From NCBI RefSeq assembly GCF_032854445.1, contig NC_088300.1, positions 25,649,608 through 25,713,607 of the forward strand: a stretch of DNA of 64,000 nt. Direction: 5' to 3'. A program made the position numbers and the translations under genes. A model generated the notes under the pieces. It had not been told where the DNA came from. It was given only the letters and a program-made list of their open reading frames with translations, and made no database searches. This stretch comes from Liolophura sinensis. Lineage: Eukaryota > Mollusca > Polyplacophora > Chitonida > Chitonidae. Of the stretch, positions 10,181-47,617 are shown piece by piece; the stretch's first letter is position 1; each line of letters starts with the position of its first letter.

Positions 10181-16622
<6,442 letters not shown>

Positions 16623-17029
16623 GTGCTGGTTACAGCATGAGGGGTTCTTCTGGCGAGAACCTACTGGACTCCACTTCCTGGCAAAGTGGTACCAGACAGA
16701 TACTCGTGCTCTGTAAACAGAAAACAGATACAGCACTGAGTTTACCAGTAAAAATACAGCCACTAGAGATTTTGCAGACAGATACATGTAAATATGTGTA
16801 CCAGCTTCAGAAATACTACCATTCATATATGACTAGAAGCGTCTAAACATGCCTGAGATCCTGTAGAGAGATATGAATAGATACAAGTACTGGCAAGTAA
16901 ACATATAACCACTCCCACAGATAAGGTGTATACCAGCTCGCGAAAACTACCATGGCTAGGAGCTTCTAAACAATCTACACATCTAATAAATATACTAGAA
17001 ATTCACATACAGACATAACTTCCTTAAGC

Positions 17030-17155
17030 ATTATTTTGATTGGTGTTTTACGCCGTACTCAAGAATATTTCACTTTTATGAGGCAGTCAGCATTATGGAG
17101 GGAGGAAACCAGGCACATCCCGGGGGAAACCCACCACCTTATTCTGACCTACTTT
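17030..17155 (-). repeat. SINE 3' portion, antisense
   Basis: Begins with the reverse-complement tail (GATTGGTGTTTTACGCCGTA, CAAGAATATTTCACTT), followed by CAGCATTATGGAGGGAGGAA and CCCGGGGGAAACCCACCACC. Lacks the tRNA-like head. Confidence 0.85.
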
Positions 17156-20100
17156 GGTGAGAAAGTAGGTCACCTTATGGACATAAAACATTTCAATGCC
17201 AATAGCGTTATCAAGATCGCTTGTAACAGAGAAGATAATAAAGAAGTTGTATCTCCATAAGGAACATCTTGTCTAGTACAATAAAGACATGTGTTTAGGA
17301 TGCACATGTGTAAATCTACAAACACACAGTACCTCACATCTTGCAACCAGAGAGAGTGACAGATATGTGTAGTTGATGTAAAGAGTATACCAGCTAGGGA
17401 TTTCATAAAGAAGATAATATATATCCCATACTACATGTATCACGGAGAAAAAGCCTGAGAAACAAAAAATCTTCCTTCATGACAATGTTGCCATTCATCG
17501 GATGTGCTTGTCTTGATGAATCAAACATACTGGTAATTCTCTTGTGGAATGGTCAAACAAGGTGTTTTTTAATTCGCTGTATTTACAGGTGCTGATTACA
17601 GAGGCAAAACCCACCCAAGACCCAATGTGACATTTTAAGATTTAATACTCAATCTGCGCACATTTTGTTGGTATACATACATTGTATATACATTTTCACA
17701 AAGTCTGGCATGAGAATTAACCATCCTTTTAAAAAAAGGCATAATTGACTTCAGAAAGTCTGATATGTAACAACTTCCCTCAGAGTTACATAAAATGTAA
17801 CGGTGACTTTCTTTCAAAACTGCAGGGCAAAAGTGCTCAATTTTTCCTCTGGGAAAATTCTAACGAATAGGAATTAGCCAATTTGAGGAAATACTCGCAT
17901 AGCTATCATGAAGATCATTCTGCTGAAGTTGTTTTCAATAACAGCAAGGAAAAATCATTTATTCACCTTGTACAAACCTCTCCATACATGAAAGTTTTAC
18001 ACGATAACGTACAACAAAATGTACATTAAGTATTATGAGACATCAATCCTAACCAAGTTCACCTGCACTGGGGGTGTTTGATTGTATCATGCCTACTATG
18101 ACGTACACATACAGTGTACATGTAGGTCAAGTAAAACATTTACATTTACGAATGAATAAATCTGAACAAGTGACCCAGATAAACATTACATCAATGCCCA
18201 GAGTAAAGAGAAACATGTCAGGACAATAAGGCTTACTACCATCTAGCCCACTGCCTTCAGTGCTGAGGGATTGACCAGAAGTGCCACATTCCAATATGTA
18301 CAGTACACCACCAGGCTGACATGTAATTTGAGGTGTTAAAGAAACCATCTTATCTGAACAAACTATTCTTGAAATAATTTCTGTTCTGTACAATGACACA
18401 GATCAATAAAGTGTTACAAAATGAACTCAAACTCTGTCTCACTAATTATTTGTTTCACCTAGATAGTTGTGTATGCACCTCACTATTATGTACCCCAACA
18501 GGCCATTTACAAGTTGGGAGGGGCAAATGGTGTCAAGTGAGTGCAGATCCTGGACCTACTGTACACCAAATAACAAGCGATGCTACCGACATTTAGGAGT
18601 GATGAGATAAAGCCGCTGGAGAATAAAATGTAATATGTCAACAACAACAAAAAAAAAATTCTGGCAAGACACTTTTGTAACAAAATTTCAATCTACATAC
18701 ATATCAATACATGTATAAATGCTTCTATACATACTGTACACCACATCAATGTAATCCACTGACTAGTAGAGATTCATCTTTAACCACAAAACCTGGAGGA
18801 AATGCACCAGTTTTAATGCATGCCATAAAAAGATGAAGTTCACTCAAAACTCCTCAAATTAATAAGAAAAAATAAAAATACTGAAACTATATATTGTCTT
18901 TCATTTCACCGAAATTATGTCTTGGAATTTAATTCCTCACCATCCTAGAACCACAATTCTAACACATCTGCCTAATGCGTACTACACAGAGAAAAGAGAC
19001 GTTGACTGCATATATCAGACTGTATATGTAGTGAATTTTTTCATGCGCCCCAACACTGTCGTCGAAGAGTAACATTATTGTTTTCAGCAGGGTTGTTTCA
19101 TCTGCAGGGAGAATAGGTTGGTACCACAATACAGTTTAAGTGTATGAAAAAAAACTATATGATGTCATCAATATGAAGCCGTGCAATCTATATGTAGGTC
19201 AACATGCCTCACTGCAAAACAATGGACACTTCTTTTCTCACTGCAGTTATCACAGAGTACACGCAGTGAATGAAGTCATTATTTCTTAAATGAATGTGGC
19301 CTTCTGTAAGTCAAAGAATAATGCACAAGTGTTTGTGGTTACTATTACTTGCCAATCCCATGAACAGGCTCCAAAAATATCTCAAATGATAAAATTCTAT
19401 GATTGCAGAAAACTGGGTTATAAAAACCATGTTTTTCCCAATGTTAGCACTGCCATCAGAAAAATACTCCCCATGACACCTGATCCGATTACTACATTAC
19501 AGTGCACATGAATACAACACATCCACAGGTCCACCACTTGTGCACTCAGTTAACTGTTAATATTGATCCACAGGCTACCCTACATATTGGAAAAAAAAAA
19601 TAGTCCCAACAGAGAAATGATCCTTAAAAAGTATATAATCCAGTGTTTGTGAATACGTGTTCCGGATCAATACATCTTGTTCACTGCTACTACACTTAAA
19701 GGTTAAGCTTAATATTCATCACCCATATTCATCAGATTTTCAAATATCATATGCAAAGTACTTGTAAGAGGAAAAGTGGCAATGCAATTTTCAGAGATTT
19801 CATATAAAGAACGTATTTATAGAAAATGAAATAGATTGCCTAGGTTGACATGGGTACATAAGAAAAGGCACCAAAGCCTCTGTCTACCGTCTGGATTGAA
19901 GTATTCAAAACAAACAAAAACATAATACCGGTAAGTGAAGTTTGAAGAATTTGAGAAGAATACTTGCTTATAGATATAGTTAAATTAATTAATGTTTTTC
20001 AGGTTTGTTAACTAACACTATCTGTATTAAATAGCATATGTATAACACTTAAATCAACAGCTATTCTCCTGCTTGTAGGATGATGGTGAAAGTCAATGGA

Positions 20101-27268: not shown

Positions 27269-27376
27269 ATATGACGGCCGCCAGCATTATGGTGGCTGGA
27301 AACCAGGCAGAGCTTTTGGGTTTCCCCCGGGCTCTGCCCGGTTTTCACCCACTATAGTGCTGGCCGCCGTCGTATA
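27269..27376. repeat. Inverted SINE fragments forming a 46-bp-arm palindrome
   Basis: Left arm 27269-27314 (TATGACGGCCGCCAGCATTA onward) and right arm 27331-27376 (ending TGCTGGCCGCCGTCGTATA) are near-perfect reverse complements around a loop of about 16 bp. Both arms are the middle of the SINE family. The right arm continues to the normal SINE tail up to about 27430. Confidence 0.9.
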
Positions 27377-27431
27377 AGTGAAATACTCTTGAGTACAGTG
27401 TAACGTACCAATCAAATAAATAAATAAATAA
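27331..27431 (+). repeat. SINE 3' portion, sense
   Basis: GCTCTGCCCGGTTTTCACCC, GTGCTGGCCGCCGTCGTATA, AGTGAAATACTCTTGAGTAC, then CCAATCAAATAAATAAATAA tail. It forms the right arm of the palindrome at 27269-27376. Confidence 0.85.
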
Positions 27432-29534
27432 CCCACACACATATTCAGGTCTTGAATACAAAATGCAGCAATTTCAGGCATTCCACGCTGTCTTTCTGCA
27501 CTTTCATGTGCCACTGTGTTAGGCAGTTGATGTTAATGATCACAAAGTTATTATTCATCTGAGTACAACTACATGTAAAACGGTAATAACATGAGTTAAC
27601 ACTGCTTGGGCTTATCTGTGCTGTTCCAGAACACAAGTCAAAGAGGTAGAAGAAACAATCTGTTTCACAACAAATCAATAATGACATGATGTAGGGTAAG
27701 AGTGCCTGTCCAGATACATGTACATAATTATAAAGGTTTGGGGGACTCCCAAGACTGCAGCACCAAAAACAGCAGCTGGCCTAATTTACAGAGGCCTAGG
27801 TTTGCGTGTGTCCCCACCCCCCCACACATACACACAAAAACAAACATAAACATGTAGGTGTATTAGCTCTGTTACAAGAAAATGCAGCAGAAAGAAATTC
27901 AGCCTCTGGAATAAAATCAACAGGGCCTGGAAGGCCAGGCCTACATGTATCTGCTTTGGACAAGGAAATAGCCATTCTTGTCAAGGAGGACATGCGTGAA
28001 ATGGCATTTAGCACACAATGGCATTGTGAGTGGAAGAGATTCTAGAGACTACACTAGCTCAATAACAGGTCCCCAACAACAGAATTGGCTGTTAGAAGCA
28101 TACAGAGTTGTGGCTTTACAAACCAAGCCCTGAGCTATAGCCTGGCATTAAGGAATCAAGAACAAAGCCTTGGCCCACACTTTGTACCATCAATCATGAC
28201 GGGTGATCTTTAGGGCAGTGGCAGTGGTTGGTGCCCTAAACCATGGAGGCAGGGTGGGGATGTGGGGATGTGGGGAGAGGAAGAGGGGCTTCAGGGAGTC
28301 ATCAGGTTGATTACTTCAGACTTTACACAGACCCTCTTAACTGGTCACAAGAACAATGTAGCTGCTGTTCCCCAGACAGCGGAATGTGGGGCAAATTCCA
28401 AAATTAGGACCACCTCACTGCCTTACATGTAATTGGAGCTGGCTTTGAACTGTGTTACATGTACATGTACACCAGATCACAGCATCAGGGGTCGTGTGTG
28501 GCATTCTACCCACTCTGAGCAGAATTAATTATCCAAGGCGGCTTTATGCTAACAGAAACATCACTGATCACCCGTTAATACCTACCTGGTCATACTCAGG
28601 ATCGATTACTAAAGGTTCAGCTATTTGTGCATCTTGCACCGGGGAACACACTAATAGCGCTTTCTAGAACAATTGATAATTCACAGCAAGTCTATCTTCA
28701 GCTGGTGCTTATCGATTCAGTTGCAGATAAAGCGTTGATTTCTACAGGCGTATTACAATATTGATTTCCACTCTTCCATATGGGTTTCTGACAGTGGCTA
28801 AATGTAGGTCTGCTTTAAAAATGAGCACATCGCGCAACTACGGCCACGAGGATGGGGGTAGCCACTAGAATAACGTACATGCTAAAAATCACCGGTATCT
28901 ACCTATGGTGCTAATAGGTTGAACCATCATCACACTACTTTACATACCACTGAACAGCCACACAGGGCTGACGATAGAGTAGAGTGATAGGACAGTCCCA
29001 GTCACAAGCTGTGCATCTTCACTCCCTCATCAAATACCATCATAGGTATGCACACCTGTAAACCCTAAGCTGCCAAAAGCCCCCAGGCACTAAGCACTCT
29101 TCACAGAGTTCATTTTCTTTTCCATTTGAATTTCATGCTCGCATCAATTACCAGCTGAAGCTATGACATTTACAATCCAGTTACTTTTAATGAGATATTG
29201 TCTGCATTCATAATGGGGAAGACAAATTCTGCTTGACCTTATATACACTGATTAGAGCATATCGCAGATGTGCATAAACAATTATGAGGATTCCACTTCA
29301 CAGCCCTGTAGTTAGTCAGCTCCATTGGGACGTGTGTTGAATAACCAGAAAGTTACACTGAGATGAACAAACTTTACATATAAAGATGAGGTCAATGCCC
29401 ACCCATAACCTATTATCATTTATCTAATTGTACCTGCAAAGGTATGTCGTCATACATGAATAAATGTACTGGTTTCATAAACCCAAAATAATTTGAAGCA
29501 ATGCTAGGCCCTTGATGAACCAAAGTACAACATG

Positions 29535-36365: not shown

Positions 36366-39300
36366 GTGATGAAAAAAAGACTGATATTGTCGAGATCTTG
36401 AAACTAACAGTATTGTAATACTTTGCGCTAATGTATCGGCAACTATTTACCAAACTATCAGGTAGCCGTATGTCCAATCAACCGTTAAAGTTGAAGGATA
36501 AAATGCTGGTAAAAATGGGACAGAAGTCGTAAAAAATAACTTATACTGTCCCACCCCCAGTAAGGAAATGTACGCAGTTTTTAACTAACGCATTGTTGTC
36601 AAAGAAAAAGTTTCCATTTAAGGCAGCATTGTTTTATATTAAGTTTTTTTTTAATGTAGTCAAATGTGTGAACTTTCATTTCCATGCTTACACATTTGTC
36701 AGTGCTAAACAAAACAGGGTTATAAGACAAAAGAAATTGGAGTAGGCATAAATACGAATCATCTGTTAGTCAAACCAAAGAATCAGTAGCTTACAGCGAG
36801 ATGAGTGATGAAAACATAGAGAATTGTCAGGTGAAAAATTTTGAGAAGAAAGCTTCTTTAAATGCTGCCCATGCACTTGATCTACTATTATGGCCGAAGT
36901 CCCAAGAGCTGCTGAACCTCATCCTAAATAGAAAAGACCCAGAAAGTGAATGGCTCGTTTCACTTTATCATTGACCAGGCTGCAGTGTATGCAATCAGAA
37001 AGTATGTACTCATTTACAAAACTCATGTGCCCCAAAATGTGCGATACTAATCATTATGGCCGAAGTCTCAAGAGCTGCTGAACTTCATCCTAAATAGAAA
37101 AGACCCAGAAAGTGAATGGCTCGTTTCACTTTATCATTGACCAGGCTGCAGTGTATGCAATCAGAAAGTATGTACTCATTTACCAAAACTTATGTGCCCC
37201 ATAATGTGAGCAGCAATCAGTAATTTGGGATTGAATTTGCCTCCTACTTTACCATATTTTGATGCATATTGCTCAGCCTCAAGATCGGATTTTGTTGAAA
37301 GGGTGGTCATATGTTACCAGTTTAAATATGACAGGAGTGAAACCCCATTTGAAAGATTGAACCCACTGTGGCTGTGCTGTTCTCACTCATGGAGGGGTTG
37401 GATGCAAATTTGTATTGTATATTCCAATGTTTTCCTAATTATATTATGGAAGTGTAACATAAAGTTGGGCACATGCAAACAGTTTTTAATACATGTAAGC
37501 TGTATATATATGCAATTCACAAAAGGTGTGTAGTGTTTAGATTGCTGAAATCGTAAGATCATTCTGATCTGAGCGGTTAGCTTTTAGTTCGATGTCCTTG
37601 CCACTTTTGCTCCTTAAAGTTATATTTTCAGCAACTTTATGCCCTTAACAGATTAAGAGATGCATCATCTGGTTTGAAGTATGTCAGGAATATCTGCTTC
37701 AAATACGAGTCAAAGAACTAAATTGCTTGAAGCTGCAGCACTTGACAAGTTCTCTTATGTTTTGCAGGTTCCATATGAAGTGTTGAATAAGAAGTTTCGA
37801 GCTGCACAAAAGAACATTGATCGTGAGATAGCTCATGTTCAAACAGCGGCCAATGACTTGGAGAAATGTTTTCACAGTGGCCGTGTGACAGTGGGAGAAG
37901 TTAGCACTGCACTGGATACAGTGGTTGAGAAGCTTTCATTACTGAAGCGCAAAGTATGTTAGTTGTGTTTGAAAGCCAGTGTTTGTCATATTATGTGCAT
38001 GTTCACATGTGGGAGGTCTTATTTCATACAGTTAATTGGTTATAATGTGCCCCTTGAATGCTGAGGGGCCTCCATAGCCGAGTGGTTAGTGTGTTAGCGC
38101 AGCACAGTGGAGCCTCCCACCAATGCGGTTGCTGTGAGTTGCAACTGTGCTTATGCTAGTTTCTTCTCTGTTCGTACTTGAGAAAGTCTGTCTGCAGAGG
38201 TCTGCTCAGCTTGGTTTTCTCCACCATAATGCTTGCCACCATCTTATAAATGAAACATTCTTGAGTATAGTGAAAAACACAAATCAAATAAAATTTTTTA
38301 TTTATTTCATTGGTGTTTTACGCCGTACTCAAGAATATTTCACTTATATGACGGCGGCCAGCATTATGGTGGGAGGAAAACAGGCAGAACCCGTGGGAAA
38401 CCCAAAAATTGTTGGCAGACCTTCCCTCTTACCGAATCAAACAAATGATTAGATCAGTAATAAATAAATCTTGAATGTTGAGTCGAAGAAGACCTCACTT
38501 CGTAATTGTGTCATGAAAAAAGGTTTCTTTCAAAATTGTTTCTTATGTACTATACCTTTTCAATAATTACAGACACTCACTAACTGAGACACACTCAAAC
38601 TAAGTGAGTAGATCACAGAAATCTCCTGCAAAGAGCTCACAGCGGGTGCTATCGGCCTGTCAGCTGGTTCAGCTGGAGTGTAGGGCTTCCCTGGATTGTA
38701 AAGCTAGCCTTTCCATACAACTTATACACGGCAACTCACAAAGTCATTATTCAGTACATTGATATGAGAACATCAACCTAGTGAAAATGTCTCCTTGCTA
38801 TTTCCCTTCACGAAACGCTCACCATGCCCTTTTCCCAGCTCTACAAACTATGCTATCCACTATTTAAAGTCAATGATTGTGTGACATTATTTATAGGGGA
38901 ACATTCAAAACCCCACAGCATTAGACATTATATCCACAGGATTGTCTTGAATCTACAGACCACTGATTGTACTAAAATTTTTGTCTAGCCAAAAGCAGCT
39001 GGTGAAAAGTTGCTGATTTTAGTTTTCAACATTAAAATCAATACCAGTTGATATAGTCTTATGATTGCAGAAGGCCGTTTGTAAATTCCTACAGGGAAAG
39101 TCTGAAGATTACTTCTGTGAGTTCAAGTCCAGCTCATGCTGGCTTCCTCTCCGGTCATAAGTGAGAAGGTCTGGCAGCAACCTGCGGATGGTCGTGGGTT
39201 TCTCCCGGGTTCTGCCCGGTTTCCTCCCACCTTAATGCTGGCCGCTGTCGTATAAGTGAAATATTCTTGAGTATGGCGTAAAACACCAATCAAATAAATA

Positions 39301-42300
39301 AATAAATAAATCTGATTGTGATCAGGTGGTTGAGATGCTTGTGTAACAATTGTTAGGATACAAGAGATGTTGATTCAATCAAACCCTTGGGCAGTGAACT
39401 ATACTGTAATAATCAGGGGAGCCTCTCTGACCGAGGTGGTTGGTGTGTGAGCACTGCGCAATGGCCCACTCTCCTACATATAGCTTTCTCTAGAGGAATC
39501 TTTCCTTTATCACAGGCTGACGAGAGTATCCAGGATGAGTTGGAGGCAGCCAAGACGTGTAAAAGGCGGGTGGAGCACCTGAAGCTGGCTGACAGTGCCC
39601 AGGGGGGTGCCGTGACAGTGTGGAGGAAGAAGCGCCTGGACAGGATGCTGGTGGAATACTTCCTGAGGGCAGGCTATTATAACACTGCCTTAAAGTTGGC
39701 AAAACACTCAGAACTGGTGGTGAGTAGGCTACAGACCAAGCACTCATAACTGGTGGTGAGTAGGCTACAGGCCAAGCACTCATAACTGGTGGTGAGTAGG
39801 CTACAGGCCAAGCACTCAGAACTGGTGGTGAGTAGGTCACAGACCAAGTGCTCAGAACTGGTGGTGAGTAGGGCACAGGCCAAGCACTCAGAACTGGTGG
39901 TGAGTAGGGCACAGGCCAAGTGCTCAGAACTGGCGGTGAGTAGGCTACAAGCCATACACTCAGTACAGCTGGTTAGTAGGCTTCTCAGATCTGGTCGGCT
40001 ACATGTCAGGCACTCAGAACTGGTGGCGAGTTGGCTACAGGCCAAGCATCCTAATTACAAAAGTGTGGAGTGGAATTGGTTGGTTTTGGATGTACATGTA
40101 GGTGTTATGGTAAGGCAATACATAAATCCATCTAATAAAGCAAATTGGAATTTGTTGATGTTAAAAAATATTTGTTTCATCACTTGCCAAATTATCAATT
40201 TGTTGATTTTGTGTTGACAGAGAATGCTAAGTGATTTTAAAGAGGTAACTTAAATTTCATTTTAGCATGATTTCCCCATCTCACTTTTTGGTGACAACAA
40301 GCAGTCAATGATGCTTTGTGCAGTCTAACACTCATTCCACTCAGTGCCTATTTATGTGTCATATGGGAAAGATCTTGAATAACTTGAAACAGGCCCATGC
40401 TTTCTCTTTGGCTCTCCAGTTTCCTCCGTGAGTGAGAACTTCTGGAGCCTGGCGTTGAGCAACAATCAAATAAACACTGTAAATATTAATGTAAGGCGGA
40501 AATATTACATTGTTATTATTATTTTTTTTTATGTCTTTATCTGAATCAGAAGTTTGGTCTTTTTCTGCAGGATTTGACAAACATAGATCTGTTCTTGACT
40601 TGTAAAGAAGTGGAGGAATCGTTGCTGCGACATGAGACTGCTGCTTGTTTGACCTGGTGTCATGATAACAGATCAAAGCTAAGGAAAATGAAGGTGGTTA
40701 TCCAGTACACATGCACTCAACAAGCCAAGCTCAAAGTTTTTGTTATACCACATACAACCATTCAATTTGGCTTGTTTCATTAATTTCCGCTAACATGCCC
40801 AACAAACACCTAATCGACACTTGAATTTTACTGTAAAACATCCTGGAATTTTAGTAATGATGGAGTGGAAAATCGTGGATTATCATGGAATTTTAAAACC
40901 TAGTGGCTGTACATTTGCACACTTATCCATTCTACTCAGCTATGACAAGTGTTATTGTGTTTACTGAAATATTTTATGTATTTCAGAGTACGTTGGAGTT
41001 CAACTTACGGCAACAAGAATACATTGAGCTGATCCGAAATAACAAACGTCTGGAAGCTGTGAAGTACGATTTTCAATACCTTTTTCCAAGCCTAAAGAAG
41101 GAATGTCACTTTTGAAATATTAAATACTCACAGTCTAAACAGAATTTGTCTGCTGCCATCCTTAAAGCCAGTGTTGGTTGTGTCAAGTCAAAAAATCTTA
41201 AACATGGCATTAAATAGCAATTAAATAAATAAATTATTGATTTGTTTGATTGGTGATTTACATTTGTATTCAAATAAATAAAGTGTATATTTATTTTTAT
41301 GATTATGATATGTAGTAGAGTATGTACATTCTCGTTTTTAGACATGCTAGGAAATATTTCACATCTCTGGAAGATGACCAGGTGAAGGACATCCAGAAAG
41401 TGATGGGCTTACTGGCTTTTCCTGTGGACACGGAGATCATTCCTTACAGGGTAAGCACAGCTTCTGGCAACAATATCATATTCTATGTCCCCTGCAAGGG
41501 AAAGCGTTTATCTTCATTTGCACTTGTCCATGAATGGGTATGACAAGATGTTCAAAAAATTACTGCAATTAAGCACATGTAAGAGTCTTCAAATTTGGTA
41601 CACGTTGAATTCTGTATTACACTGTGAACAGGTGTGAATGTCGCGGTATATGCAGGGGCTCATTTTTTAAAGGGAATCTGTGAACCCAATTCCCAAAATA
41701 TTCCTGTGATACAAAGTTAAAGGATTTGGATAAAGAAACAGAAAAAAAAAGAATATTTAAGCAAACAATAAGTTTCAGTCTGCATGAAGAATTCTGTAAT
41801 TGTCTATGATTCAGCATGCATTTTATGATCTATTTGGTCTGAAACAAATCAATATACTGAAATTTAGAATTGGATTCCATTGTGACGAAGTAACAGGAAA
41901 CCTTTTATGTCGTATTGGTTTTCAAAAGCACCCAGCACATCCTCATACTGAATTTGGGGGCTACTTAATACATTGAAATTTCAACTACCATACCTTCTCA
42001 ATAATTGTAAACACTCGCTCATTGAGTTTCCTGCAAAGCGCTCATAGTGGGTGATATCGGCATGCCAACTGGCCCAGCTTGAGTATAGGCCTACCCTGGT
42101 CTATAAAGCCAGCCTTTCCTGACATCTTGTATGTAGCAACTCAAGATGTCATTTTTCAGTATACACGCTTGTTCACAAAAAAATAAAAGAAAAAAATATT
42201 GATACTGGGACATTAACATATTGAAAATATCTCTTACCCAAATTCCCTACCCACGACACTCACCATACCGTTTTCCCAGCTTTGTTTTATAAACTATGCT

Positions 42301-45300
42301 ATCCGATATTTGAAGTTGATGGTTTTGTGGCATTTACAGGGGAACATTAAAGACCTTATCATGTTGGGCAGTATATCCTCACCATTGTCTTGAATCTACT
42401 GATCGCTTGTCTTCCTCCCCACTCATGTATAGGGCCATATAACATTGCTACAGATACTAATTTTTCAGAGAGAAGACGGTACTCCCGACTTCGAAAGAGA
42501 AGGAGTATGGTACTTTTGACTTTTCAAGTAGGCCCTACGTGGTACTGCAGAACACATTTTTTCAAACACTTAACTCTGCGCTATTTTGGATCACGAGTAA
42601 TTAATATGTGTACCTGTAAAGTGTGAAGGCAATCAAATGAAGGGGGCTGGAGAAAAGACTTGGGTGTGCATATATGTGTACATGTACATAGGCCGATATG
42701 TACAGGGTTAATTCTTTCCTGTGGAGCTATCTAGGACTACACAAGTAGATGTAGGCCTACAGGTAAATTGTCCAAATCTTTGACTAATCATTACATTCTA
42801 GAATAAAGTAATTCTTTCAGCTCTTCTGTAAGAGGAATGAATTTACGTGAAATTAATACATTAATTTATTTCACATCAGCCTCTGTGGGGTTTATGTCAA
42901 TAACTCACCCACTGCACTGACAATTTAATCTGTACTTTTCATTTGTTGTGCTTTGATAGCAGGGGTTACAGTATTATTTTTTCTATAGTAACCTGCCTGA
43001 TGTAACAGGTAAATTTTCTTTTACCTATCTAAGCATTCTTGGTCCATACAAACTTGTTAACAACTGCCGTCTTTGGGTAAAACATGATAAAACGCTTGTT
43101 GATACAGGCTATATCCAAAGGTACATTTGAAGACAACAATTTATTATTTTGTGCTTGAATTATTGTCAGTATAAAGTATATATTTGAAGTGTTTTTGTGC
43201 ATATGTTGCTAGCTGTTCTCATGATATTTTTTATTCCATTGCATTTTCTTTTCTCTTTACCAAATCATAAGTACATATACATGTCAAAACTCAACCCTCG
43301 ATGATACTTTAACATTGCAGACTTTACTGACGATCCGTGAGGAATTGAAATCAGACATTTGGGAGCGATGTAAAGATAATTTTGTGCAGCACAGTAGCCA
43401 AAAAGGCCATTTATAACACTGCTTCATCTTATTCATAGTAAACTCTGGAGAATGTCACAAAGACAAATATCACGGTAGCCATTCTTCACGGCTGTGGGTG
43501 GTGGCATACAAGCTTTTTCTGTAGCCTACAGTGTTGGCTAATACTAACACATGGTGGAGAACATCGAGCACATGGTTTGCTGTGAAGATTTTCTTTGTTG
43601 ATTTTGACAGGGCTATCTGCTATAAATCTCACACGTACGCTAGCTTTCGGGATCTTAGAAGTACACACAAATCTTCGGGCATATACAGAACGCTCTCTCT
43701 TAATTTTAGTACCGTATTATCTAATTTTGTAAGCGTATTCATGCCTTTAACACTGATTTAAGAATTGTAAAAGTTGCTGCAAAGCACCTTATAATTTCCC
43801 ACACAAGCTAGGGTGAACGAAATCAAGAACAAGTTCAGTTGAAGTTCAAATATATATTGAAGGAAACATTAAATCTTTATACAAGGTGATATAGGTGCAG
43901 TGATACTAAGAGATGAATGGCTTAGTTAACCCACAGTTGAGCCATGGGGAGATAGCACACAGAGCTGTGATTCTTGGTAATTGAACACATCTGGAGGATT
44001 GTACATACCTTTGACAAAACCAATAAACATGCTCACTGAACATGTAACTGTTAACCGTAGTAGAATGGCTACACAGCTACTGGCCGAATGCACATCTCAC
44101 GTATGAGGTGCTGAGTGAGTTGTGCCAAAACGCGTTAGTGAGCAACGATATGTCAGCACTAGTACCATCTGCATATCTTCTACCATAATGCATGTCTCAT
44201 GTCTGATCTGCAAGAGTATGTCATGCCAAAACAGGCGGATTGAGGTTAGACGGTAGGCCAGTAATAAATAGACCAACATTGATAAGCAGGCAAGTCTTTC
44301 AGAACATCACCGAATGACGGATATATGTAAGTAAGTAAAAAAATACCCATATGCGTTTTAGAAGCTAATTTACAAATATAAATGCAACACTTTTATAACG
44401 CTTTACAGGTTTGTCATTGTTGGAGTAAGAAAATCTGTTTTCACGCAGTTTGCTAGAATTAGAACTCGTGATCACACCTTACCAGTGTAGGCCTTGATGA
44501 TCTAACAATAGCGTTCATTATATGGAAATTTGGGCAGAGGAGATGCCAAACTATAACCTGTTGAGTATTCAGATATAAAGGGCTGAGCTGTATTGATATC
44601 ACTGTTAATCCCAGCCTTTCCCACAGCTCTGTGTATAGTCTTTGAAGTTTCAACAGTTTAGGAGACCCGTCAATCACAGCAGAGACTTGATCTGACCACC
44701 TGGTATTTTGTCAGTTGTTTTTAATTCTACTTACTGAAATAAATGACTACATGGCTTCACTGAAATTGTTTAGTAACAAAGTCTATGGCGCTGTCACAAA
44801 AATTACTTACTAAATTTTTCGACGATGGATGGATCCATCCTTGATAACAAGTCAATGGCTTGTTACGCGTAACCAGCAATGTTTGATTGAGGGTCTAGAT
44901 GGACGAGTGGGTGTGTAATCACCTGCTCTCAGTTCATGCCTGGGGGGTTTACCCATGTCGCAAGGGCCAGCAGCCAGACTGTCTCTGGGTATTACTGCAC
45001 AGGTGAGGGCTAATCACTCTCCCCTGTCATTTCCTCTTGCAACTAAAATCAGCTAAACTTTATGGCCAGAAATTTTCGGCTGAACTCTACGGGATTTACG
45101 GTATATATGTGTTGCTTTGAAAGGCATCACGTATATGACAGAAAGCATATAAACAATGTTCGCCCAGAAAACAAAGTTCAAGTGCTTAGATCCAAGGGAG
45201 AAGATGAATGGGCTGATTTCCCAGAAGTAGGGCAGTAGGGCTTAATCAGCACAAACGTTTACCGGTAATCGTACTGTTTTTTTTTTTTTTTTTTTTTTGA

Positions 45301-47617
45301 ATATGTTGACATTCATCACAATACTGAGTCCATCTAGGCCTCTTACAACCGTTCAATCTTTAAAAACCCAGCAGTGTAGTTGTCAAGCCATAGAGGTTCA
45401 CTGAGGCATGACGGAGGTGTGGACTACTGTCACTGATCGACTATTGGTAATCCTGTACTCCCCCACAGAGAGTTTATTACTTAAGACAACAGCCCTCGCT
45501 AGACATCATGGTGTACATTTTCAGGAAATGTGTCTGTAATTATTGAGAATATTTCACTTATATGACAGTGGCCAGCATTATGGTGGGAGGAAACCGGGCA
45601 GAGCACAGGGGTAACCCACAACAATCCGCAGGTCGCTAACAGACCTTCCCACATATGAGCGAAGAGGAAGTCAGCTGGGGACCACTGTTGATATACACAA
45701 ATCTCAACCCCATTGATACTCATTATGGTTAAGGCCTATTATTCATGGCAGTTTTTGGCATGTTCTTGGTATATTCTATTCCAGGCACTGCTGGACACAA
45801 ACCGCTGGCAGGAGCTGGTGGAGCAGTTTAGAGAAGACAACTACAAGCTACACCAACTAAACAGCATGTCTATCTTCACAGTCACACTCCAGGCTGGACT
45901 CTCAGCCCTCAAAACACCGTATCCTTTTCTGGGCTTATTAGCATTCAGCTCTTAACTTGCCATTACTAGTACATATAAGGAATACATGAAAAGGAGCTCT
46001 AAAGCTAAAGATCATGGTTTGAAAGGAAATGAAGATAGGTATGCCAAAGAAAAATGGAAAAGTAAAAATTAATAGTGGACAAAAATGTTTGGAAATAACA
46101 CCATCAAAGAAGATACCAGAAATGTGGGACCAGCTCAGCTCCATTTGAACTCTTCCTCCAGAGACTTGTTTTGGCAGCTGTCATTGCATTGACATTTGGC
46201 GCCTTAGGCAAACTGTAGTTTAAAGCCATTTTGTTGCCCCAGGAAGAAATCTGTGGGGCTTTTTTCGTACCTTAAGATGTTTAGGACACATCGTGAGTTG
46301 CATATTTTGCAATAAAAAAAAAAATAGAAGCATTTCATGTATCCTCCATGTAAAGTGAGAGATTACTGATGTGTTTGAAATGTGACCAGAGGCAAATGAT
46401 GAACAGTAGCTGAAACCTTTTGCATTCATGTCTTGAAGCTCTCATCTGTGGCGTTTAAAGAGCCTGTCTGGTTTATGAGATGAAGGCATTATTTTCTTTC
46501 TGCCTGTAGCCAATGATGTTTGAATGAAGCGCTGGCTAGGACGTAGAGTCAGGAGGTTTGTCATGTACCTAGCATAAAGTATTGAGCTTGCTCTATGGGT
46601 CTCATATGGGAAAGTTCCTCAGTTACTTTCCAAGGGCTGGTGGTTTTCTTCACACTTTATTTACCACGTTTTAAAAAATCTCACCACCATCTCATATTAA
46701 TGTAATATATTCTTGATTTCAGCATGGAACACTAATTAAATAAATAAATATATATTTTTAGACATGCAGATCTTTATCTGTTTCTAATAACACGTTCTTT
46801 GACTGTGGATAGTCACTGTTACAAGGAGAACTCTGACCACAGGAATCCTGACTGCCCTGTGTGCTCCCGTAACCTCAACCAACTGGCTCACCCGCTGCCC
46901 TACGCACACTGCTCCAATTCCAGGCTCATCTGCTCCATCAGTGGTCTCCCCTTGAATGAGCATAATCCCCCTATGATGCTTCCAAATGGCCATGTGTATG
47001 GCTTGAGTGTGAGTTCTCTCATTTAATTGTGCTTTCTTTATGTGTCTGATGAAGGTACTGCATTAATAGATGTAGTGTAGTTAAAATGACATAAATGCTG
47101 ACGTATGGTCAGCAAACGTATCGTTAGCAGGCGCTTTTTTTCAACAAAGGCCTAGGACAGAACTCAAATTTGCCAAACCGAGCATGTGTATTCATGATTG
47201 TGATCCCAGTCTGTTGGATCAACCAGCTTTTCTCTAATGTGTTCTGGGAAAATGTTTGAAGTTGAATGTTATTTACCCCTATGCAAAATGATCAGACTAC
47301 TTGCCTGCTTTCTGATTATAATTATTTTTAATTCCAACAATTTACCCTTTTGCTGTCAGCTGAAGGAAAATTTGCTTTCTTTCTGGTGTAACAATGTTTT
47401 GAGAAATATCCCAAAATTTCCAAGAAATCATGTGAATAAGGTAAAAGAAAAATACTGTATGTTAATTATCCTGGCAATAAGGATATTAACCTATCCTGAA
47501 TTTTTGCCCATTCAGGCCCTGGCTTCCATGGCTGCTGACAACGAAGGTCGGGTTGTCTGTCCTCGAACGAAAACCATATTCAACCTTGAGGAGACGGAGA
47601 AAGTGTTTGTCATGTGA
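36327..47617 (+). CDS. MAEA: MAEA, E3 ubiquitin-protein transferase subunit, complete, nine exons
   Basis: RING subunit of the GID/CTLH ubiquitin ligase (yeast Gid9/Fyv10 relative). Exons: 36327-36365, 37768-37953, 39516-39719, 40571-40693, 40987-41063, 41342-41450, 45785-45918, 46813-47008, 47516-47617. All phases join and the sum is 1170 nt, giving 389 aa (human about 396). Order: coiled-coil N-terminus ([20 protein letters not shown]), LisH near 112-140 ([20 protein letters not shown]), CTLH near 150-215, CRA-like middle ([20 protein letters not shown]), Gid-type RING in exons 8-9 ([42 protein letters not shown]) and a C-terminal VFVM. Start: ATG at 36327 in a good context (A at -3, G at +4). 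Intron 7 is U12-type. Intron 3 starts with a 36-bp array of duplicated donors. Regulation: TCTCGCGA-type promoter element upstream. Confidence 0.96.
36887..37218. repeat. 166-bp tandem duplication in MAEA intron 1
   Basis: Two adjacent copies (from 36887 and 37053) of a unit starting ATTATGGCCGAAGTC and containing AGAGCTGCTGAAC, AATAGAAAAGACCCAGAAAG and TGACCAGGCTGCAGTGTATG. They differ at only a few sites, so the duplication is recent. Confidence 0.93.
37423..37523 (+). repeat. Dispersed segment also present near 24.83 kb
   Basis: CCAATGTTTTCCTAATTATA, TTATGGAAGTGTAACATAAA, GTTGGGCACATGCAAAC, AGTTTTTAATACATG and TATATGCAATTCACAAAA recur at 24824-24937 in the same orientation with few changes. 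Element type unknown. Confidence 0.8.
37768..37953 (+). CDS. MAEA: MAEA exon 2
   Basis: Encodes [20 protein letters not shown], then [15 protein letters not shown] and [13 protein letters not shown]. Borders TTTTGCAG and GTATGT, 62 codons. It is a predicted helical coiled coil and aligns closely with human MAEA. Confidence 0.96.
38066..38298 (+). repeat. Full-length tRNA-derived SINE, sense, in MAEA intron 2
   Basis: The head reads GCCTCCATAGCCGAGTGGTT A with an A-box-like TAGCCGAGTGG, a decayed B-box area, then TTTTCTCCACCATAATGCTTGCC, ATTCTTGAGTATAG and a CAAATCAAATAAA tail. This is the best view of the family's tRNA-like 5' end in this window. Confidence 0.85.
38299..38440 (-). repeat. 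SINE, antisense, tail-to-tail with the preceding copy
   Basis: TTATTTATTTCATTGGTGTT, TACGCCGTACTCAAGAATAT, GACGGCGGCCAGCATTATGG, GGCAGAACCCGTGGGAAACC and GCAGACCTTCCC. It abuts the AATAAA tail of the sense SINE, giving an inverted pair within one transcript. Confidence 0.88.
38551..38970 (+). repeat. Dispersed 420-bp repeat, copy 1 (MAEA intron 2)
   Basis: Shares TATACCTTTTCAATAATTAC, TCCTGCAAAGAGCTCACAGC, GCCTTTCCATACAAC, ACGCTCACCATGCCCTTTTC, AAACTATGCTATCC, AGGGGAACATT and ATTGTCTTGAATCTACAGA with the copy at 41989. I do not recognise the family. No ORF. Confidence 0.85.
39110..39313 (+). repeat. SINE, sense, nearly full length, in MAEA intron 2
   Basis: TGTGAGTTCAAGTCCAGCTC (B-box-like), ATGCTGGCTTCCTCTCCGGT, GGCAGCAACCTGCGGATGGT, CTGCCCGGTTTCCTCCCACC, GCTGTCGTATAAGTGAAATA, TGGCGTAAAACACCAATC and an AAATAAATAAATAAATAA tail. 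Well-preserved copy. Confidence 0.9.
39516..39719 (+). CDS. MAEA: MAEA exon 3 (LisH)
   Basis: Encodes [60 protein letters not shown] and LAKHSELV; the third block is the LisH dimerisation motif. Acceptor ATCACAG. I place the donor at 39720 because KHSELV followed by DLTNIDLF in exon 4 matches the length of the human protein. The exon's last 15 nt are repeated downstream. Confidence 0.95.
39705..40042 (+). repeat. 36-bp tandem array duplicating the exon 3 donor site
   Basis: Units start (CACTCAGAACTGGTGGTGAG) at 39705, 39741, 39777, 39813, 39849, 39885, 39921 and 39957, with degenerate copies to about 40042. Unit 1 is real: 15 nt of exon 3 plus 21 nt of intron. GTGAGT donors recur at 39720, 39756, 39792, 39828, 39864, 39900 and 39936, and then decay (GTTAGT, GCGAGT). 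Units 2 and 3 contain an in-frame TAA. Confidence 0.95.
40571..40693 (+). CDS. MAEA: MAEA exon 4 (CTLH start)
   Basis: Encodes [40 protein letters not shown] and K, 41 codons, between TTCTGCAG and GTGGTT. It covers the end of LisH and the beginning of the CTLH domain, near-identical to vertebrate MAEA. Confidence 0.96.
40987..41063 (+). CDS. MAEA: MAEA exon 5 (CTLH)
   Basis: Encodes [20 protein letters not shown] and RLEAV plus two bases of a Lys codon. The donor is placed at 41064 (GTACGA) because only this border restores EAVKHARKYF with the next exon. The donor is weaker than average. Confidence 0.9.
41342..41450 (+). CDS. MAEA: MAEA exon 6 (CTLH/CRA)
   Basis: Starts with one base completing Lys, then [36 protein letters not shown], ending before GTAAGC. 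Human MAEA has HARKHF and MGMLAFPPDTHISPY at the same places. Confidence 0.95.
41989..42410 (+). repeat. Dispersed 420-bp repeat, copy 2 (MAEA intron 6)
   Basis: CATACCTTCTCAATAATTGT, TCCTGCAAAGCGCTCATAGT, GCCTTTCCTGACATC, ACACTCACCATACCGTTTTC, AAACTATGCTATCC, AGGGGAACATTAAAG and ATTGTCTTGAATCTACTGA mirror copy 1 in order and orientation, with clear divergence and a small A-rich insertion. Confidence 0.85.
42411..45540. other. Rest of MAEA intron 6
   Basis: No conserved coding exon seen apart from the weak candidate at 43321-43416. There is a T-run of about 20 at 45278-45298 and general AT-rich sequence. Confidence 0.6.
43321..43416 (+). other. Possible alternative terminal exon inside MAEA intron 6
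   Basis: After a good acceptor (TTTAACATTGCAG) an open frame reads [31 protein letters not shown] and TAA. The phase fits exon 6, which ends on a full codon. If used it would end MAEA after the CTLH region without RING. It is short (32 codons), has no known homology to me, and may be chance. Confidence 0.25.
45541..45690 (-). repeat. SINE, antisense, truncated at the tail, in MAEA intron 6
   Basis: GAGAATATTTCACTTATATG, ACAGTGGCCAGCATTATGGT, GGGAGGAAACCGGGCAGAGC, CAATCCGCAGGTCGC and CCTTCCCACATATGAGCGAA. The tail segment with CGCCGTA is missing. It lies about 95 bp before exon 7. Confidence 0.85.
45785..45918 (+). CDS. MAEA: MAEA exon 7 (CRA)
   Basis: Encodes [44 protein letters not shown] plus two bases of Pro. 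Acceptor ATTCCAG. The donor is GTATCCTTTT, the signature of U12-type introns. Confidence 0.95.
45919..46812 (+). other. U12-type (minor spliceosome) intron 7 of MAEA
   Basis: The intron begins GTATCCTTTT, the full U12 donor consensus. TTCTTTGAC at 46795-46803 fits the U12 branch-site consensus, with the branch A at 46802 only ten bases from the closing AG at 46811-46812. There is no usual polypyrimidine tract at the acceptor. The reading frame across it (KTP/HCYKENS) matches MAEA exactly. Confidence 0.88.
46813..47008 (+). CDS. MAEA: MAEA exon 8 (Gid-type RING)
   Basis: Encodes [60 protein letters not shown] and VYGLS. CPVC and AHC/SRLIC are the metal- or fold-defining residues of the GID RING. 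The last codon AGT precedes GTGAGT. Confidence 0.96.
47516..47617 (+). CDS. MAEA: MAEA exon 9 (RING end and C-terminus)
   Basis: Encodes [33 protein letters not shown] and TGA. VVCPRTK and the terminal EKV-V/I-M end are diagnostic of MAEA/Gid9. Acceptor ATTCAG, in phase 0. Confidence 0.96.
   Translation, partial: ALASMAADNEGRVVCPRTKTIFNLEETEKVFVM

Follow-up and report, generated by a model that had tools for sequence, protein, structure and literature searches.

The chiton Liolophura sinensis carries, across one exon-intron border of the gene for the E3 ligase subunit MAEA, a minisatellite whose every intact unit contains a 5' splice site. The locus raises the question of which of seven near-identical donors gives the protein, what the others would do to the transcript, and whether such an arrangement is exceptional. 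Positions below are those of the window, that is, the whole stretch of 64,000 nucleotides that was analysed, unless a genome coordinate is given.

The gene and the border named by the initial annotation were confirmed by protein homology. Joining the 204-nt exon at 39516-39719 (plus strand), the final 15 nt of which are part of the repeat unit, to the next coding exon at 40571-40693 (plus strand, phase 0 with donor 1) gave a peptide of 109 residues, of which 108 aligned gap-free to human MAEA (chain 8pjn_i, E 9.1e-43, PDB search); a Pfam search with the MAEA exon returned no family. The intron between donor 1 (39720) and the second of these exons is 851 nt long. The match has no gap at the junction of donor 1 with the acceptor preceding 40571; by homology, donor 1 therefore gives the protein, and the array is headed by the donor of a real exon. 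Other pieces of MAEA were placed from 37759 to 47614 on the plus strand with a human MAEA probe, and for the first 20 human residues this probe found no placement in the window.

Several other features surround the gene. A 166-bp segment, present in 1.9 copies (36887-37208, 96%), lies shortly before the first MAEA piece that was placed, and a reading frame overlapping the start of this repeat had no match in Pfam. Upstream of MAEA and in opposite orientation, CtBP-like exons of the 2-hydroxyacid dehydrogenase family were recognised on the minus strand (11943-12236, 14395-14739 and around 15127; E 1.9e-14 and 7.4e-11, Pfam); human CTBP1 and MAEA adjoin likewise. Similar peptides occur in frames at 27287-27532 and 39123-39374 (minus) and at 38138-38452 and 16970-17260 (plus), among others, and probably represent an interspersed repeat.

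The array was delimited by TRF at 39698-39982 on the plus strand (period 36, 7.9 copies, 87% matches). Each unit consists of 15 exon nt and 21 intron nt, and seven units are in exact register, with donors at 39720 + 36k (k = 0-6): donor 1 at 39720-39725 (GTG/GTGAGT, exon end 39719/39720), donor 2 at 39756-39761, donor 3 at 39792-39797, donor 4 at 39828-39833, donor 5 at 39864-39869, donor 6 at 39900-39905 and donor 7 at 39936-39941 (GCG/GTGAGT). Downstream follow a decayed eighth unit (39957-39992), with the donor core GTTAGT at 39972, and a phase-shifted further copy of the border (40018-40034, core GCGAGT at 40026), recognised as a 17-mer match with 2 mismatches. The seven GTGAGT at 36-nt spacing and the eight or more repeats of a unit divided 15 to 21 by the border, as first described, are therefore both present. 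The same holds for the in-frame TAA reported in units 2 and 3 (39747-39749 and 39783-39785) and for the open frame of units 4-7. Donor 2 already lies behind a stop, and as translation past donor 1 reads VSRLQTKHS*, the TAA of unit 2 is included by each of donors 2-7, which upholds the earlier expectation of a premature stop from any donor but the first. As read from these frames, donor 1 is the only one of the seven donors that would give an intact MAEA. On the minus strand, two long reading frames run through the array (39490-39972, 160 codons, and 39677-40054, 125 codons) because its unit of 36 is a multiple of three without a stop.

No other locus was found to carry this unit. In the assembly searched (609 Mb, 632 contigs), the 17-mer across the MAEA border, AACTGGTGGTGAGTAGG, was found at 0-1 mismatch in these seven units only, and at up to 2 mismatches in 74 places, 8 of them at the MAEA locus, compared with 62 for the reversed pattern. 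The 611-bp array region matched nothing but itself, the locus being present in one copy in this one assembly. A dispersed repeat or transposon was rejected on these searches.

Human genes offer close relatives of this architecture. For human CBS, the original paper on repeats and activity is reportedly that of Lievers in 2001. The CBS gene contains a 31-bp VNTR at the border of exon 13 and intron 13, c.1444_1467+7(16_21) (PMC2630376), and a larger number of repeats was reported with lower enzyme activity (PMC5188458; table entry PMC1395315). By its name, the CBS unit comprises 24 exon nt and 7 intron nt, so that, as in MAEA, the border lies in each tandem copy; unlike the MAEA array, its unit is 31 rather than 36 bp, and it is present in 16-21 copies and polymorphic in people. 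Human ABCA7 has in intron 18 a 25-bp VNTR whose first GT serves as the exon 18 donor, and retention of one unit leads to a frame shift and a premature stop in a minor transcript, apparently 2 +/- 1% (PMC5954066). Cycloheximide raised the stop-bearing transcripts of this gene and skipping of exon 19 increased with array length, and the lower expression of long alleles was not ascribed by the authors to unit retention (PMC5954066). The ABCA7 array resembles that of MAEA in that its first GT is a real donor and that the next copy adds a unit with a premature stop. However, it starts at the GT, the exon end not being stated as part of the unit, has 12 to ~427 units, and is tied to skipping of the next exon. 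For IFI6, Turri in 1995 is said to have described a minisatellite whose units provide several splice donors. The introduction of a citing paper states that the human IFI6 (6-16) minisatellite supplies several splice donors (PMC4526556). Its repeat units thus resemble those of MAEA as multiple donors, two downstream units being used so that three mRNAs result. The 38-bp VNTR in intron 6 of human TERT is likewise an intronic minisatellite by which splicing is altered; however, it lies more than 1 kb from the exon borders and acts by RNA pairing (PMC3948165), whereas the MAEA array includes the border. Judged by its sequence, the MAEA array is a member of the known kind of exon-intron-border VNTRs represented by CBS, ABCA7 and IFI6. 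Among the papers listed by the literature searches, none on a genome with recurring arrays of this kind was found, a weak negative.

How donor 1 would prevail is not apparent from the donors themselves. Computed U1 pairing is equal for donors 1-6 (-10.8 kcal/mol), slightly better for donor 7 (-11.0) and clearly weaker for the decayed eighth (-6.8), so the choice of donor is unexplained by sequence strength. Our preferred reading, to which we give a probability of about 0.7, is that of a largely neutral minisatellite over a splice border, in which donor 1 would be dominant and a minor leak through later donors would be lost to decay. A 36-bp segment spanning the exon end and the 5' splice site would have been duplicated in tandem, the array presumably growing from the exon outward into the intron. 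Donor 1 would then be taken for nearly all transcripts, as suggested by its exon being the shortest (204 nt vs 240-420), which exon definition would favour, and by its place directly behind the real exon. Extra copies would be near-neutral, cheap for as long as donor 1 wins, and under weak selection. Rare use of a later donor would add the TAA and end in nonsense-mediated decay or a truncated protein, leakage presumably being low. Such a leak with decay at the MAEA array is plausible by analogy with ABCA7, with its retention of one unit and its rise of stop-bearing transcripts when translation is blocked. Counting against this reading, U1 pairing of the donors is equal and donor 1 is not clearly more accessible in folding. 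In addition, SRSF1 favours intron-proximal 5' sites in reporters and hnRNP A1 intron-distal ones (PMC5585400), so the reported factors pull both ways, the pull of SRSF1 counting against the dominance of donor 1. Arrays of this kind also need not be neutral, to judge from the reported CBS activities, and a crude count given below hints that donor-like arrays are somewhat rarer than expected, as under mild selection.

Several rival readings have to be weighed against a neutral array with a dominant first donor. If later donors were used substantially, decay would lower MAEA and array length would tune this ligase subunit in the manner of a copy-number rheostat. The stop brought in by each of donors 2-7 would suit such tuning, as would the lower CBS activity reported for longer arrays (PMC5188458) and the drop of ABCA7 expression with array length (PMC5954066). 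However, in ABCA7 one-unit retention was constant over length and was not regarded by its authors as the cause of lower expression (PMC5954066), and we consider tuning of MAEA unlikely. Control by RNA structure, in which the unit's ACTCA would pair with the donor's TGAGT and hide the donors so that folding decides which one is open, is very improbable, even though the two motifs are complementary and paired in the predicted fold and the computed accessibility of the seven donors is very low (0 to 0.005), below the median of 60 random sites (0.03). Accessibility is just as low at 17 further GTGAGT sites in the window (median 0.002), donor 1 is not singled out by it, and the fold z-score is -1.58, 8 of 100 shuffles folding equally well; a special RNA structure was thus rejected.

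The divergence of the units bears on the remaining alternatives. The seven units vary at 10 of 36 positions, with a mean pairwise difference of 11.4% in the exon-like part and 12.2% in the intron-like part. That an assembly artefact is involved has a slim chance: tandem arrays are easily mis-sized, but here the units differ from each other and decay toward the 3' end, and arrays of other sequence share the architecture. Retention of spare donors by selection, to safeguard against the loss of donor 1, would account for the identical donor cores in the seven units, but each spare gives a stop and the exon-like and intron-like parts diverge equally, which makes this extremely unlikely. The same low probability applies to an array that is exonic in a longer isoform with the last donor. 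A unit of 12 codons and the open frame of units 4-7 are in keeping with it, but it is contradicted by the in-frame stops of units 2 and 3, and human MAEA aligns without an insert.

Similar arrays were found elsewhere in the genome. A pattern of three GGTGAGT at 29-57-nt spacing was matched 3,378 times over the two strands and its reversal 2,182 times (1.55-fold); these matches overlap, and ~680 arrays genome-wide is a crude estimate. Arrays of AGGTAAGT gave 626 matches, compared with 468 for the reversed pattern. The 100 triple-GGTGAGT matches listed correspond to 20 arrays, all within the initial 5.2 Mb of contig C1, where the pattern is denser than genome-wide: this stretch of the 609 Mb holds 100 of the 3,378 matches. 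Three of these 20 arrays (L041, L042 and L046) start exactly at exon ends backed by protein matches. At L041 (G000:C1:4179698-4180497, minus strand), the exon ends VLQDLPPKIIQDYYCDLSPLQ/GTGAGT and matches residues 1513-1557 of a 'Helicase-like protein' (E 2.6e-18), and at L042 (G000:C1:4191914-4192713, minus strand), where the exon end reads CFASLIRLMPLE/GTGAGT, the match is to residues 1201-1251 of that protein (E 3.8e-11, PDB). The first donors of L041 and L042 are near 4,179,892 and 4,192,472 of C1. We take this protein to be Mot1/BTAF1, and since the two arrays lie 12.6 kb apart, on one strand and in the right order, they probably mark two exons of one Mot1/BTAF1-like gene. The two arrays are unrelated in sequence to each other. 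The exon of L046 (G000:C1:829354-830153, onward to ~830390) encodes ankyrin repeats (Ank_2, E 2.8e-11, Pfam) and ends ALHIAAAK/GTGAGT, with the first donor near 829,898 on the plus strand, the array having 12 GGTGAGT sites in 493 bp. As in MAEA, copies of the exon end precede later donors, of 19-21 nt every 48 nt in L041, of 12 nt every 33 nt in L042, and of ~20 nt with 1-2 differences in L046, every ~31 nt, some steps being longer between intact donors. The arrangement had been called unusual at the outset, a view that these three further exon ends among 20 arrays and the same or close architecture of human CBS, ABCA7 and IFI6 do not support.

In all four arrays (MAEA, L041, L042, L046), the protein match ends at the upstream, exon-proximal donor. 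Downstream donors were read in 23 cases (MAEA 6, L041 2, L042 10, L046 5), of which 19 bring an in-frame stop, three a frame shift without a stop, and one, in L042 at +33 nt, leaves the frame open. As stops are common by chance in inserts of this size, they show which donor is required and not selection for stops. At L047 (G000:C1:1121974-1122773, minus strand), a candidate array, the repeat begins at the donor without an exon end, as described for ABCA7, and the upstream frame of 228 nt had no Pfam match. L047 is one of eight other array starts at which the first GGTGAGT is preceded by a frame open for 96-234 nt, with no family above Pfam's cut-off.

These counts depend on how the exons were sought. 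For 15 of the 20 array starts, peptides were submitted to Pfam (10, then 7 peptides, of which five came from new arrays and two from L049), the frames of L043, L045, L053, L054 and L058 being shorter than 20 residues. Among 24 single GGTGAGT sites used for comparison, 20 were submitted, and the other four likewise had frames below 20 residues. Additional upstream sequence was used for nine of the 20 arrays, the remainder being judged on 700 bp, and PDB queries were made with the peptides of MAEA, L041 and L042 only. With Pfam's own cut-off applied, an exon precedes two of the 20 arrays and three of the 24 singles, the third array (L042) resting on its PDB match. Pfam is weak on short exons, so 3/20 and 3/24 are lower bounds.

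Minisatellites are abundant in this genome (criteria: period 10-200, at least 2.5 copies, score of at least 100). They make up 11.0% of a 190-kb sample of 19 arbitrary 10-kb pieces (35 arrays), unevenly spread, as a quarter of the minisatellite bases come from one piece (L034) and five pieces are free of them; in the window, five arrays cover 3.0%. A 46-bp unit is repeated at 490-1041 (12 copies, 97% matches, TRF), ending 54 nt short of an exon resembling DNA polymerase beta (thumb domain, E 1.9e-12), which begins at ~1096 after an acceptor-like site. The sample and the window together contain 31 GGTGAGT sites, namely seven in the MAEA array and the 24 single ones, one of which, at window position 181, appears by eye to follow a polymerase-like exon, with no family matched. 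Pfam-supported exons precede 3 of the 24 single sites, and exons backed by protein matches precede 3 of the 20 array starts (Fisher p = 1, with little power), which gives no indication that arrays shun real donors.

Genome-wide, single GGTGAGT occurs 112,675 times against 63,364 for the reversed word (1.78-fold), and as the excess is only 1.55-fold for the triple pattern, preferential seeding of arrays at donors was rejected. By this crude count, arrays take up the donor-like excess at ~0.7 of the rate seen for the control, a ratio that could reflect mild selection against donor arrays. As a null, however, the reversed word is imperfect, and the counts are clumped, so the ratio is taken to indicate neither preference nor strong avoidance, and no more. 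Array formation seems indifferent to splice donors, and arrays at donors seem to be largely tolerated. Intron gain through duplication of an AG/GT proto-splice site was ruled out for MAEA, whose donors are preceded by GTG or GCG. In the units of L041, L042 and L046, AG does stand directly before the donor GT, and these AG-bearing repeats sit at the start of an already existing intron.

What stands of the initial interpretation is a splice-border minisatellite in MAEA in which donor 1 gives the protein and later donors bring a stop; its rarity does not stand, given the arrays at other exon ends and the human relatives. Taken singly, the MAEA array is ordinary, and it becomes more interesting as one of several in this genome. 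It is possible, at somewhat less than even odds, that splice-donor minisatellites form a class in this genome, perhaps of one to a few hundred genes, in which the upstream donor is kept and the output of some genes is tuned by the length of the array. For annotators, exon ends within such arrays would be easily misplaced. Many experiments on 5' splice site choice work with a small number of sites, engineered or paired by nature. In this one genome, near-identical donors, up to seven in MAEA and at least 11 in other arrays, lie in a row behind conserved exons of at least three genes, and because the protein fixes the winning donor while the donors are near-identical, the rule of choice becomes testable in native genes. 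If the class is real, it would amount to a natural mass experiment on choosing between identical 5' splice sites.
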